From assembly GCA_018004645.1 (NCBI GenBank), contig JAGNBV010000015.1:1-46550 (forward strand): a DNA stretch of 46,550 nucleotides, written 5' to 3'. This DNA is from Bacteroidales bacterium (GTDB lineage: Bacteria; Bacteroidota; Bacteroidia; Bacteroidales; CAIWKO01). Below the pieces are notes generated by a model. It was not told the DNA's origin. It did no database searches and saw nothing but the letters and a program-made list of their open reading frames with translations. A program made the position numbers and the translations under genes. Positions 24,430-33,380 of this stretch are shown here, piece by piece. Numbering within the stretch: the first letter of the stretch is position 1; every line of letters begins with the position of its first letter.

Positions 24430-24443
24430 TATAAATGAGCAAT

Positions 24444-25952
24444 ATGAAAAGGATACGATTATTAACCCTTTTAAGTTTAATTTTTATGACCGCAAGTTGT
24501 AATTCTCAGAACCATGAGCAGCCCAAAAACGACCGCCGGCCTGCCGTGGCGGGGCAATTCTATGCCGGTGATGCCGCAATGTTGAATAAGGACCTGAAAG
24601 CCTTGTTTGATAAGGCGTCGCCAAAGAAAGTCAATGATGTCCTGGCCATTATTTCGCCACATGCAGGTTATGTTTTTTCGGGCGAAGTGGCTGCCACCGC
24701 AATCAATCAGATAGACGAAAATAAGGAATATACCGACATTTTTGTCATCGGCTCCAGTCACAGCTCCTATTTCAGCGCGGCATCAGTGTATTGCGATGGT
24801 GATTTTATTACACCCCTCGGCACCGTGGAAGTGGATACGGACCTGGCAAAAAAACTGGTAAAAGAAAATGCAATAATAAAAAATTATAAGGATGTGCATA
24901 TTTTTGAACATAGCCTCGAGGTGCAGCTTCCTTTTCTTCAGTATAAGATGAAAAAACCATTCCGCATTGTTCCAATTGTTGTTGGCACCAGCGATGCCGC
25001 TGATTGCAAAAAAATTGCCAAAGCCCTGCAGCCTTATCTGAACAGCGACAACCTGTTTGTCATCAGCACCGACTTTTCGCATTACCCCAACTACGAAAAT
25101 GCCAAAAAAGTGGACCATTTGACGGCACAGGCCATCGAGAGCAACTCGCCGGCGCAGCTGCTGGAAGCATTAAAGTACAACGAAAAACTATATATCCCGA
25201 ACCTTGCCACCAGTTTGTGCGGATGGTCTTCTGTGCTCACCCTGTTGTATATGACGGAAAACCTGGACGACATTACCATCAGCACCCTGCAGTATAAAAA
25301 TTCAGGCGACTCGCCTGTGTATGGCGATAGCCTGCGGGTGGTAGGCTATAACGCCATGGCGGTGAGCGGCATAATCAAGAAAAAAATGAACGAAGATTTT
25401 TCGTTGAGCAGTAAGGACAAGGAAGACCTGTTGGATATAGCCCGCAACACCCTGACAGAGTTTATCAAAAATGGTAAAATTCCGGCTATTGACACAGCTG
25501 GTTTTTCAGGTGTTATCAAACAAAACTGCGGCGCTTTTGTAACACTGCACAAAAAAGGTCAGCTACGGGGCTGTATCGGAAGGTTCGAGGCTGATAAACC
25601 CTTGTATCTAGTGATTCAGGATATGGCCATCGCTGCATCAACAGAGGATTACAGGTTTAGCCGTGTGGTCGCCGACGAATTAAAACTTATCGACTTGGAG
25701 ATTTCCGTGTTGTCGCCGCTGAAGCTCATAAAATCCATCGATGAAATAGAACTTGGCAAACACGGCATCTACATAAAAAAAGGCAACCGCGGCGGCACAT
25801 TTCTGCCGCAGGTAGCCACCGAAACAGGGTGGACAAAAGAAGAATTTCTCGGCCATTGTGCCGAAGACAAAGCCGGGCTGGGATGGTACGGATGGAAAGA
25901 TGCCGATATTTACATCTATTCGGCTATCGTCTTTGGGGAGAAGGATGAGTAA
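24444..25952 (+). CDS. MEMO-AMMECR1 fusion lipoprotein (AmmeMemoRadiSam proteins B and A)
   Basis: About 502 residues with two fused domains. A signal peptide ends in lipobox MTASC, so the protein is probably lipid-anchored in the envelope. Residues ~35-290 are a MEMO1 domain (RPAVAGQFYAGDAA; ISPHAGYVFSGEVAA; VFVIGSSHSSY-type histidines; STDFSHYPNYENAKKVD), related to LigB-type dioxygenases with conserved metal-binding histidines. Residues ~325-500 are an AMMECR1 domain with its hallmark LRGCIGRFEADKPLY. Many bacteria encode these two with a radical SAM enzyme (AmmeMemoRadiSam system); I do not see that third gene nearby. The frame also opens at 24435. Function of the system is unknown. Confidence 0.88.
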   Translation: MKRIRLLTLLSLIFMTASCNSQNHEQPKNDRRPAVAGQFYAGDAAMLNKDLKALFDKASPKKVNDVLAIISPHAGYVFSGEVAATAINQIDENKEYTDIFVIGSSHSSYFSAASVYCDGDFITPLGTVEVDTDLAKKLVKENAIIKNYKDVHIFEHSLEVQLPFLQYKMKKPFRIVPIVVGTSDAADCKKIAKALQPYLNSDNLFVISTDFSHYPNYENAKKVDHLTAQAIESNSPAQLLEALKYNEKLYIPNLATSLCGWSSVLTLLYMTENLDDITISTLQYKNSGDSPVYGDSLRVVGYNAMAVSGIIKKKMNEDFSLSSKDKEDLLDIARNTLTEFIKNGKIPAIDTAGFSGVIKQNCGAFVTLHKKGQLRGCIGRFEADKPLYLVIQDMAIAASTEDYRFSRVVADELKLIDLEISVLSPLKLIKSIDEIELGKHGIYIKKGNRGGTFLPQVATETGWTKEEFLGHCAEDKAGLGWYGWKDADIYIYSAIVFGEKDE

Positions 25953-26895: not shown

Positions 26896-27354
26896 ATGAA
26901 ACTGAAATTTAATAAGTGGCTGTTTTCGCTTGTTGCCCTGATTTTTGGATTTTCGGGGAGTGTGGCTGCACAGTATGGTGTGCCGGAAAATCATTATTTG
27001 GTCAAAGGCAAGGTGATATCCGAAAAATGTCAGGATGCTGTTCCGCAAATAAAAATAACCCTCAGGGCCACAGATGCTGATGGCGTAGATCATGATATGC
27101 CTGCCATCACCGACGAAAACGGAAATTTCAGTGTCGATAACCCATACATCAAAACATACTCCGAATACCTGTTGATAGCCGAAGATGTGGATGGTACGCA
27201 AAACAAGGGTGATTTCGAACCCCTACGGCAGCAGATTATCTTAGGCACCGGTGATTTTGAGAATTCGACAACAGAAAACTGGGACAGGTATTTTGAAAGC
27301 AAAAAACTGTACAATTTTGCGTTAAAAATGAGAAAAGATGAACCCTGCAAATAA
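26896..27354 (+). CDS. Small exported protein with N-terminal YGVP motif, candidate radical SAM substrate
   Basis: A 152-residue exported protein. The signal peptide (KWLFSLVALIFGFSGSVAA) is predicted to be cut so that the mature chain begins at or next to QYGVPE (Y27-G28-V29-P30). The next part, FLVKGKVISEKCQ-like (HYLVKGKVISEK...ITLRATDADG...ITDENGNFSV), is a carboxypeptidase-regulatory/CNA-B-type beta-sandwich pattern. It resembles, from memory, the Bacteroidota radical-SAM-associated putative lipoproteins, but it has no lipobox cysteine. First gene of the cluster with two further YG-motif proteins and a radical SAM/SPASM enzyme. Confidence 0.8.
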   Translation: MKLKFNKWLFSLVALIFGFSGSVAAQYGVPENHYLVKGKVISEKCQDAVPQIKITLRATDADGVDHDMPAITDENGNFSVDNPYIKTYSEYLLIAEDVDGTQNKGDFEPLRQQIILGTGDFENSTTENWDRYFESKKLYNFALKMRKDEPCK

Positions 27355-27443
27355 TCTTTGCAAGGTATTTGTATTATCCGGCGGTCTTTTTTTTGTGTAG
27401 TCTTATCACTTGAATGATATCAACTGATACAAAATGAATAACC

Positions 27444-27890
27444 ATGAAAAACAAAAGGATATTTTTTCTTAAAGTCCATGCCCGCTTGTTAAAGAACTTC
27501 ATCCGGCTGCTCGGTCTGGCCGGTTTTGGTTTTTTAATTTCCTGTGACAAAAATAACGGGCCTGTGGCCATGTACGGAGTAATAAGCAGTGAATTTGAGT
27601 TTAAAGGCGTCGTAACCGATGCGCTTACCCATAACGCCATACCGGGCATTGAGGTAAAAATAACGCCCGGCGCCAACGATACCACAGTGGCGCACACCAG
27701 CCCCGCGGGCACCTACGGTGCCTTCCGTTACGAAGCTTATGAAAACCAGAACTTCAAGCTTATTTTTACCGATACCGATAGTACGCTCAATGGGAAGTAC
27801 CAGCAGAAAACTGTCGATGTTACAATAAACTTCAGGGATTACAACAACCTGGAACATGAAGAAAACGTTGAGCTAAGCCCGATACCATAA
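27444..27890 (+). CDS. Lipoprotein with YGV motif after the lipid anchor, candidate radical SAM substrate
   Basis: A 148-residue predicted lipoprotein. A long hydrophobic N-terminus ends in lipobox FLISC with C34 as the lipidation site. Ten residues later the motif MYGVISSEFEFKGVVTD appears (Y44-G45-V46), the same element as in the preceding protein (QYGVPENHYLVKGKV), then a CNA-B-like beta-sandwich (IPGIEVKITPGANDTT...GTYGAFRYEAYENQNFKLIF). Here the proline of YGVP is replaced by isoleucine. It ends 2 bp before the third small protein. I infer a surface or periplasmic lipoprotein modified by the downstream radical SAM enzyme. Confidence 0.8.
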   Translation: MKNKRIFFLKVHARLLKNFIRLLGLAGFGFLISCDKNNGPVAMYGVISSEFEFKGVVTDALTHNAIPGIEVKITPGANDTTVAHTSPAGTYGAFRYEAYENQNFKLIFTDTDSTLNGKYQQKTVDVTINFRDYNNLEHEENVELSPIP

Positions 27891-27892
27891 CC

Positions 27893-28273
27893 ATGAAGAT
27901 AAGAAGAACCATTTTAATGTGCAGGTCGAAATTCTATTATTATACCCTGCTGATGATAGGCGCTACTAGTCTGTTATTCTTTTCCAGGTGCAATTCCGGC
28001 CCTTCGGAAGAAGAAAAAGCTGCCCGTATCAGCGACTCTCTTGCCAGGGTAAAGGCCTGTCAGGATTCCATTGCAACGGCAGATTCCATCGCCCGGGCGC
28101 AACGCGAACAGGCCCGCGTTGATTCCATTGCAAAAGCAGATTCCATTGCCAGGGCAAAGAAACCAAAGAAACCCAAAAATCCTTATAAGCCATCGCAGCC
28201 CATGACAAAATATGGGATACCCAAGTACAATGAACCCATTGCCGAATACGGCGTTCCGTCAAATACCTATTAG
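27893..28273 (+). CDS. Repeat-rich putative lipoprotein with two C-terminal YG(I/V)P motifs
   Basis: A 126-residue protein with three parts. First, a hydrophobic N-terminus ending LLFFSRC (C33); arginine before the cysteine makes the lipobox non-canonical. Second, residues ~39-88 form a charged helical region with five DS(I/L)A repeats. Third, a Lys/Pro-rich spacer (KKPKKPKNPYKPS) leads to a tail carrying YGIP (107-110) and YGVP (119-122), twelve residues apart and ending four residues before the stop. The architecture, a rigid spacer that presents a short repeated tail, looks like a precursor with a C-terminal modification target. An internal ATG at 27917 is an alternative start. The radical SAM gene follows after 32 bp. 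Confidence 0.8.
   Translation: MKIRRTILMCRSKFYYYTLLMIGATSLLFFSRCNSGPSEEEKAARISDSLARVKACQDSIATADSIARAQREQARVDSIAKADSIARAKKPKKPKNPYKPSQPMTKYGIPKYNEPIAEYGVPSNTY
28032..28160 (+). repeat. DSIA-encoding imperfect tandem repeats
   Basis: GATTCCATTGC-like units occur at 28064, 28082, 28121 and 28139, with a more diverged unit at about 28034 (GACTCTCTTGC). They encode the DS(I/L)A helical repeats in the third small protein. The near-identity of the last units at DNA level suggests recent unit duplication. Confidence 0.7.
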
Positions 28274-28305
28274 GACTGATTGAAAAACAACTGAAAAAAA
28301 TCACA

Positions 28306-29394
28306 TTGAAAAAGCACCGCCCTGGTTTCAAAAAACGCTTAGCGCTTGATGTGTTCGGCAAATATGTAAATGTTCAGTCGCAGCTCCATGAACTTACCTA
28401 TTTCTTCTGGGAATGTACCCTGAGGTGCAATATCAGCTGCATACATTGCGGTAGCGACTGCCGCAGCGAGTCCGGAGTAAAAGATATGCCGTATCAGGAT
28501 TTTCTTAAGGTTACCGCCCGTGTCAAAGAAGTTTACGATCCCCACAAAGTCATGATTGTTATTACGGGTGGAGAGCCGCTGATGCGCAAAGATCTTGAAG
28601 AATGCGGTATGGAACTGTACAAACAGGGATTTCCCTGGGGTTTTGTTACCAACGGCTATGCCCTGACGCCGGCGCGTTTTGAGAGATTATTACAATCCGG
28701 CTTGCGTTCCATGACTATCAGCCTTGATGGCTTTGAAGACAGCCACAACTGGATGCGCGGCAACAAACATAGTTTTGAAAAGGCCGTGAATGCCATTAAA
28801 CTTGCCGTAAGCGCTGGCGACAGTATTGTTTTCGATGTGGTTACCTGTGTCAATCAAAAAAATTTTGATGAATTGCCCGAACTTAAAAAATTCCTTATCG
28901 GGCTTGGCGTAAAACGTTGGCGTATTTTCAGTATCTGCCCTATCGGACGGGCCAAAGAGAATCCTTTACTAAGCATCAGCAACGAACAGTTTCGCCGTGT
29001 ACTTGATTTTATCAAAGCCAACCGGGAAGAAGGCCTGATACAGACCAGCTTTGGCTGCGAAGGTTTTCTGGGTGATTACGAAGCTGAGGTGCGCGATGGA
29101 TTTTTCTTTTGCCGGGCCGGAGTCAATATAGCTTCGGTACTGGCCGACGGTTCTGTCTGCGCCTGCCCGAACATCAACAGGGATGCATTTACGCAGGGCA
29201 ACATTTATAAAGATGATTTCATCGATGTCTGGAATAAAAAATTTCAGCCCATGCGCGACCGCCGCTGGACTCAGGAAGGTCTGTGCGCTGATTGCAAAGA
29301 ATGGAAATGGTGCAGGGGCAACGGCATACATCTGCGCGATGTGAAAAACCATGATGTGCTGCGCTGCCATTACAAGATGATCGAAGAATTGTGA
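28306..29394 (+). CDS. Radical SAM/SPASM maturase of the YGxP lipoprotein cluster
   Basis: A 362-residue radical SAM enzyme. The [4Fe-4S]-SAM motif CxxxCxxC is C41, C45, C48 (RCNISCIHC), followed by the ITGGEPLMRKDL motif that binds SAM and MTISLDGFEDSHNWMRG. The C-terminal SPASM region has cysteines C269, C285, C287, C327, C330, C336 and C354 for auxiliary clusters. SPASM enzymes of this kind modify ribosomally made peptides or proteins. The context of three small exported proteins with a shared YG(V/I)P element just upstream makes them the likely substrates. From memory it fits the Bacteroidota family that is paired with putative lipoproteins (TIGR04133-like). The start is taken as TTG at 28306; no ATG precedes C41 in frame. 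Confidence 0.88.
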   Translation: MKKHRPGFKKRLALDVFGKYVNVQSQLHELTYFFWECTLRCNISCIHCGSDCRSESGVKDMPYQDFLKVTARVKEVYDPHKVMIVITGGEPLMRKDLEECGMELYKQGFPWGFVTNGYALTPARFERLLQSGLRSMTISLDGFEDSHNWMRGNKHSFEKAVNAIKLAVSAGDSIVFDVVTCVNQKNFDELPELKKFLIGLGVKRWRIFSICPIGRAKENPLLSISNEQFRRVLDFIKANREEGLIQTSFGCEGFLGDYEAEVRDGFFFCRAGVNIASVLADGSVCACPNINRDAFTQGNIYKDDFIDVWNKKFQPMRDRRWTQEGLCADCKEWKWCRGNGIHLRDVKNHDVLRCHYKMIEEL

Positions 29395-33093: not shown

Positions 33094-33152
33094 TCAGTAT
33101 TGATTTACAGACATTTTTTATGATAAAATGTGTTTTAACAAAGACAAACGAA

Positions 33153-33380
33153 ATGAAGATATATCCAAATCCGGCAAATGACAGGATAACTATTGAAAAC
33201 CCTTACAGCCAAACATTTACCTTAAAGATATTCGACCTTATGGGAAAAGTGGTTAAATATGATATTATACCCTCGGACAAAAAGCAAATTGATGTGCAAG
33301 ATTTATGTAACGGGGTTTATATACTTGAATTTTCTTCAGCAGAAAAAAATATGCAGGATAAATTAATTATCAGAAGGTAG
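33153..33380 (+). CDS. Bare T9SS type-A sorting domain (probable deletion remnant)
   Basis: A 75-residue product that consists only of a type IX secretion sorting domain: MKIYPNPANDRITIEN...TLKIFDLMGKVVKY...QIDVQDLCNGVYILEF...KLIIRR. It lacks a signal peptide and any passenger domain, so it cannot be exported as it stands. The leader up to the ATG at 33153 aligns with the leader of the intact T9SS protein gene at 34205, so the ATG is probably the original start and the sequence between codon 2 and the sorting domain has been lost. The frame is open upstream to 33003, with another ATG at 33120, but that part corresponds to promoter and leader sequence. Confidence 0.6.
   Translation: MKIYPNPANDRITIENPYSQTFTLKIFDLMGKVVKYDIIPSDKKQIDVQDLCNGVYILEFSSAEKNMQDKLIIRR

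Follow-up and report, generated by a model that had tools for sequence, protein, structure and literature searches.

What does a radical SAM enzyme do to the small exported proteins that are encoded beside it? This question is raised by four genes in a single orientation (+ strand) at positions 26896-29394 of a 46,550 nt stretch of DNA from a Bacteroidales bacterium (CAIWKO01; GCA_018004645.1, JAGNBV010000015.1), the whole of which is referred to here as the window. The enzyme gene is the last of the four. A reading made earlier from the letters alone (the sequence-only reading) had placed four open reading frames here, and their positions and strand were confirmed (Table 1). It had proposed that three dissimilar small proteins share a YG(V/I)P element, which one maturase recognises or modifies, perhaps before export. 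No Rfam families or tRNAs were found in the window.

Table 1. Coordinates of the candidate substrates, their motifs and the enzyme within the window
Feature	Position	Strand	Description
Candidate substrate 1	26896..27354	+	152 aa, TIGR04134 (lipo_with_rSAM) beta-sandwich, 61.6 bits against a cut-off of 39.8
XYG motif Q-Y-G-V-P, substrate 1	26971..26985	+	From sequence; QYGVPENHY, aa 26-34
Candidate substrate 2	27444..27890	+	148 aa, TIGR04134 lipoprotein, lipobox LISC, 66.5 bits against a cut-off of 39.8
XYG motif M-Y-G-V, substrate 2	27570..27581	+	From sequence; MYGVISSEF, aa 43-51, no Pro after YGV
Candidate substrate 3	27893..28273	+	126 aa lipoprotein, lipobox FSRC, ADSIA-type helical repeats
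XYG motif K-Y-G-I-P, substrate 3	28208..28222	+	From sequence; aa 106-110
XYG motif E-Y-G-V-P, substrate 3	28244..28258	+	From sequence; EYGVPSNTY at the C-terminus
Radical SAM/SPASM enzyme	28306..29394	+	362 aa, TTG start; TIGR04133, 541.3 bits, cut-off 425

The enzyme exceeds the curated cut-off of the NCBIfam family TIGR04133 (rSAM_w_lipo), and is therefore a member. It is the only one in its genome, which encodes two TIGR04134 proteins, both inside the window. The cysteines are as the sequence-only reading had described them: the CxxxCxxC motif is present (C41, C45 and C48), and the seven cysteines of the downstream SPASM region (C251, C269, C287, C327, C330, C336 and C354) are invariant in 42 family members. 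An AlphaFold2 model of the enzyme (pLDDT 91.7) has only about 27 residues ahead of the core fold and contains no RRE domain, and across 81 loci no PlpY/RRE-like or other small partner gene recurs beyond close relatives, substrates aside. The enzyme itself has no signal peptide. It was present in 3 of 395 Bacteroidota genomes drawn evenly, and 227 stretches match it in a collection of 84,980 species genomes; members of the family come from the gut, the rumen and the environment, and are also found on a plasmid record of Parabacteroides distasonis.

The association of such enzymes with lipoproteins in Bacteroidota, which had also been pointed out, is already catalogued in NCBIfam as TIGR04133/TIGR04134, with no function given. 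The locus resembles this pair in its gene order, and in that the respective cut-offs are exceeded by the enzyme and by two of its three small neighbours. It differs in that the model names convey neither function nor motif, in that the third protein and most of the motif-bearing proteins (carriers) of Fibrobacter fall outside TIGR04134, and in that carriers include non-lipoproteins and type IX secretion system (T9SS) proteins.

The small proteins represent two architectures at this locus rather than three, because candidate substrates 1 and 2 both exceed the TIGR04134 cut-off and are relatives; only the third is unrelated, as had been claimed of all of them. Substrate 1 has a type I-like signal peptide without a lipobox, immediately followed by the tag VAAQYGVPENHY. 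In its AlphaFold2 model (mean pLDDT 88) the fold begins at around residue 32, with transthyretin-like proteins as the nearest solved folds, and the motif (residues 27-30) precedes the beta-sandwich, in a less confident segment. Both substrate 1 and its relatives in L012 and L013, none of which has a lipobox, carry an AQYG tag at the very end of a type I-like signal peptide. The tag of substrate 2 is AMYGVISSEF, with Met43 as residue X of the X-Tyr-Gly (XYG) motif, and GPVAMYGVISSEF is a short tag-bearing stretch named alongside this protein. No convincing match to substrate 3 was found in NCBIfam or Pfam, including to TIGR04134, and its homologues (in L009, L010 and L012) have only L8, L19, the lipobox cysteine C33, Y107 and G108 as invariant residues. 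A distant paralogue of substrate 3 elsewhere in the genome (G000:C22:24033-24308, in L127) matches residues 17-107 of the query only.

The association between motif and enzyme is genuine and exceeds what chance would give. From species-representative genomes, 80 loci encoding relatives at 52-86% identity to the enzyme were gathered and submitted to simple gene calling; most are from Bacteroidales and Fibrobacter, while some contigs had been binned as Neomarinimicrobiota and one as Bacillota. YGxP was present in the gene immediately upstream of the enzyme at 61 of 71 loci, compared with 7 of 198 distant genes in the same loci (Fisher p=1.6e-41, although the loci are not independent), and at 67 loci the pattern occurred in at least one of up to four upstream genes. 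The linkage remained when enzymes were collapsed into clusters, in 22/24 at 80% identity and 11/13 at 70%. The sequence-only reading had stated beforehand that it would be refuted were the motif not conserved beside other members of the enzyme family, and it passes this test strongly. It had also called for a profile of the motif: in an unbiased scan of gapped three-residue patterns, YGxP was the most enriched, being present in 61 of 135 non-redundant neighbours where 2.05 were expected from shuffling and 2.9 from the background. Three further loci from plasmid records agree, with CEYGSPHANF in Parabacteroides distasonis, CEYGTPSADY in Phocaeicola massiliensis and SCYGMPENYY in Treponema saccharophilum. 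There are exceptions: at L050 the enzyme adjoins a TIGR04134-like protein without YG, and no carrier was seen upstream of the enzyme in L014 or L079. Related folds encoded away from the enzyme lack the tag: in L092, a TIGR04134 homologue has CSEESTTEYSEGG where the tag would be, and its genome has no TIGR04133 match at E<=1e-60. Of the 12 other matches to the family alignment in the window's genome, ten begin at or beyond model position 37, past the motif (nine of them at 44-48), and the two that begin earlier have E of 0.03 or worse.

As judged from the alignments, the invariant core is XYG, with proline frequent but dispensable; hence the shared YG(V/I)P element that had been described stands insofar as YGxP is enriched beyond chance, but not in its full extent. 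In 26 aligned TIGR04134 proteins, with a mean identity of 20%, the invariant positions are one glycine of the signal peptide, the tyrosine and glycine of the motif (Y27 and G28 of substrate 1) and two glycines of the fold, with the motif proline in at least 90%. At the closest locus, L009, some sites read YGIV, YGVLP or YGIQ. The Fibrobacter neighbours of the enzyme contain 209 YG pairs against 50 in shuffles (4.2-fold, compared with 1.3-fold in distant genes), with up to eight copies per protein; the residue before the pair is mainly Leu or Lys, and the one after it Val, Ile, Cys, Pro, Ala or Thr. One Fibrobacter lipoprotein (L067:1353-2048) has eight YG sites, several of them in tandem AKYGVSSS units.

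The proposal that a single maturase serves several architectures holds across the family, as the 118 strict carriers form 14 sequence clusters when motif and N-terminus are masked; it had overstated the number at this locus. Two or more carriers occur at 27 loci, with six in tandem in L012. A lipobox-like cysteine is found in 101 of the 118, and in Bacteroidota carriers the tag mostly lies 2-16 residues past it. In all six rumen loci of this type that were checked, from Bacteroidales MAGs (L020, L033, L044, L046, L051 and L062), the protein next to the radical SAM enzyme joins a TIGR04134-like domain to a T9SS sorting domain. Lipoproteins, Sec forms with type I-like signal peptides and T9SS fusions therefore represent three export routes in use. 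In the Treponema saccharophilum protein the lipobox cysteine is residue X; C-Y-G sites of this form lie in L109:5613-6002 and L012:1175-1627, where the lipidated residue would thus be the modified one. A second TIGR04133-like enzyme lies directly downstream in L044 (from 7415, in a locus region from 7116) with its own small candidate substrate, CLYGVPSSEF, and the same small gene is carried by L020 and L062.

Carriers with unrelated mature parts have similar signal peptides when they are encoded at the same locus. Over 83 such pairs the median local score was 49, compared with 18 between carriers and other exported genes (p about 1e-18), and over the 36 pairs from outside Fibrobacter it was 26 against 18 (p=4e-6). 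The signal peptides hence meet the criterion of RiPP-type systems, a conserved leader with a diversified remainder within one locus. Part of this likeness could come from recent duplications after which low-complexity parts diverged fast. The similarity appears within loci only, and a leader common to all phyla was rejected, as the signal-peptide profiles of Bacteroidota and Fibrobacter fail to recognise one another (AUC 0.44 and 0.31).

The reading that we favour, with somewhat more confidence than doubt, is that TIGR04133 works in the manner of a splicease on the XYG of exported proteins, ahead of their export. The motif-enzyme linkage, the invariance of the motif, the export signals and the leader-like signal peptides are observed; the modification, its chemistry, its timing and its function are inferred. 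The locus would be a cytosolic post-translational modification system, in which the enzyme acts on X-Tyr-Gly, usually followed by Val, Ile, Cys, Ala or Thr, and often by Pro, in flexible segments of newly made proteins. In the two beta-sandwich proteins these sites would directly follow the signal peptide, and in the helical-repeat lipoprotein they would lie at the C-terminus. Tyramine would be excised at XYG without an RRE partner, with the signal peptide probably doubling as the recognition leader, and the modified proteins would then leave by the lipoprotein, Sec or T9SS route and expose an electrophilic ketoamide to the exterior, which could plausibly inhibit proteases or form a covalent trap. 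Since the enzyme lacks a signal peptide and depends on SAM from the cytosol, it is likely to act before export, and the earlier suggestion of such timing fits an enzyme of this kind with exported carriers, although by inference. As no modification has been observed, the interpretation of the YG element as a site of recognition or modification is supported at the genome level only.

The IPR026482 family of PlpX is presumably equivalent to TIGR04103. The splicease PlpXY and its spliceotide precursors were reportedly described by Morinaka in 2018, and Scott et al. 2022 (Chem 8:2659) are said to have predicted 939 splicease systems. PlpX has been assigned to IPR026482 (PMC11002830), and PlpXY acts on XYG, with MYG and LYG as natural sites and PIRPLYGLPI as the published tag (Richter 2023, PMC10533398; PMC11002830). 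The AMYGV of the window, and PLYGVP, ALYGPP and AKYGVV in relatives, are sites of the same kind, and the criterion of an enzyme encoded beside X-Tyr-Gly substrates (motif definition, PMC10533398) is met. Tyramine excision is preferred because of this match and because ketoamide products are described as protease inhibitors (PMC11117315). The TIGR04133 loci share with PlpXY a SPASM radical SAM enzyme adjoining proteins with X-Tyr-Gly, often as XYGxP, and with spliceotide clusters the multiple sites and substrates per cluster and a leader-like conserved N-terminus. Nevertheless, there are several differences. Firstly, they have neither an RRE partner nor a Nif11 or NHLP leader, with export signals in the leader's place. 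Secondly, the carriers are folded surface proteins. Thirdly, X is often Glu or Lys, rather than the Met or Leu of PlpA. Fourthly, relative to PlpX, C251 is gained and the last cysteine of Cx2Cx5Cx3C is missing. Finally, spliceases are defined by excision of C8H9NO (-135.0757 Da) at XYG, whereas the activity of TIGR04133 is only inferred. Hence the system is splicease-like at the level of its substrate motif, and membership is not shown.

Phylogeny leaves this position unchanged. The enzyme scores 111.8 bits against the TIGR04103 model, below the cut-off of 725; TIGR04133 is about 25% identical to PlpX, and profile scores bring it no nearer to PlpX than to a number of further SPASM families. 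A grouping of TIGR04133 with PlpX was neither favoured nor excluded (AU p of 0.62), with support for the alternative of 59/15 and long outgroup branches, in a tree that lacked full sampling of TIGR04103, TIGR03913, AhbD and NirJ; long branches spoilt a first tree, which included five further radical SAM enzymes from the genome. At a Nostoc plasmid locus, where the enzyme is a TIGR04103 member (853 bits) for which TIGR04133 is the fourth-best NCBIfam model (152 bits), the Nif11 precursor ends SIALYGLPPELF. No small XYG gene was noticed beside the TIGR04103-like enzymes of other Bacteroidota (L102-L106, short loci). Members of the nearest family, TIGR03913, lie beside DUF1843 peptides, some with PYG; in L112 and L113 such peptides, beside PlpX-like TIGR03913 enzymes, carry PYG or LYAAG close to the N-terminus, which may be a substrate motif for that family as well.

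Two other SPASM systems bear comparison. The anaerobic sulfatase-maturating enzyme anSME is an RRE-free SPASM protein that recognises a short linear motif in its exported substrates. Its fold is close to that of TIGR04133 (Z 25.8), but it reads CxPxR, produces formylglycine and serves one substrate family, rather than Tyr-Gly in diverse substrates; it is a useful precedent for an RRE-free enzyme of this type. The mycofactocin maturase MftC, which oxidatively decarboxylates a peptide tyrosine (PMC8326336), is a related SPASM enzyme working on the same residue, but its site is a C-terminal Val-Tyr, it has the partner MftB, and its product is a small redox cofactor.

It remains possible, though on our assessment unlikely, that XYG is modified by some other reaction, such as oxidation, epimerisation, a crosslink of the tyrosine side chain, or bonding to a neighbour through an ether or C-C link. 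The solved structures closest to the enzyme model, among the matches listed, are SuiB (Lys-Trp crosslink), anSME (formylglycine), CteB (thioether) and ChlB, with no PlpX structure among them, and remoteness from PlpX and the different cysteine pattern point the same way. However, only Y, G and mostly P are conserved, and the absence of a conserved partner residue beside YG argues against a crosslink, while the invariant glycine after tyrosine and the XYG(x)P context match spliceases. Less plausible still is that XYGxP is merely a docking handle for modification elsewhere, for instance at the lipobox cysteine or the C-terminus. The usual spacing of the tag from that cysteine in Bacteroidota would suit such a role, but across carriers the tag ranges from N- to C-terminus, the mature parts share nothing else, and its repetition within single proteins favours a site of modification over a handle. 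That the motif has no relation to the enzyme, and instead sorts lipoproteins or surface proteins or plays a structural part, can be almost wholly discounted, since although it sits where the export signals of Bacteroidota lipoproteins lie, it also occurs in proteins secreted by the Sec and T9SS routes, as well as in Fibrobacterota and a Treponema, is nearly absent from distant genes and missing from the L092 homologue, and falls outside the fold in the AlphaFold2 model.

The proposal of splicease-like action on XYG before export offers a chemistry that can be tested, and a rule for substrates (X-Tyr-Gly close to an export signal), to an enzyme family that lacks a function in NCBIfam. The literature searched contained no XYG rule spanning architectures, no parallel with spliceases, and neither the range of export routes nor the signal peptide as leader, although Scott et al. 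2022 may overlap. If the proposal is correct, bacteria of several phyla may be equipping their surface proteins with a reactive backbone group ahead of export; backbone-edited beta-amino acids would extend beyond small peptides to folded proteins that are exported and displayed on the surface; the signal peptide would act as the enzyme's recognition leader; and RRE-free enzymes would become available for TyrEx labelling chemistry, already in use for protein conjugation. The fullest version is speculative, and we consider it improbable in its entirety: that the signal peptide is a RiPP leader for an RRE-free splicease acting on surface lipoproteins and T9SS proteins, that the displayed products are alpha-ketoamides in which X (Glu, Leu, Lys, Ala or Met), with the Pro or Ala before it, sets the extracellular protease trapped, and that the whole forms a genetically encoded panel of surface protease inhibitors across multiple phyla.

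Elsewhere in the window, a fusion of MEMO1 and AMMECR1 (AmmeMemoRadiSam proteins B and A; 24435-25952) lies two genes upstream of the cluster, and such a fusion is likewise found upstream in L009. A short open reading frame at 33147-33380, lying downstream of paired genes for a histidine kinase and a response regulator, encodes little beyond a T9SS type A sorting domain (55.8 bits).
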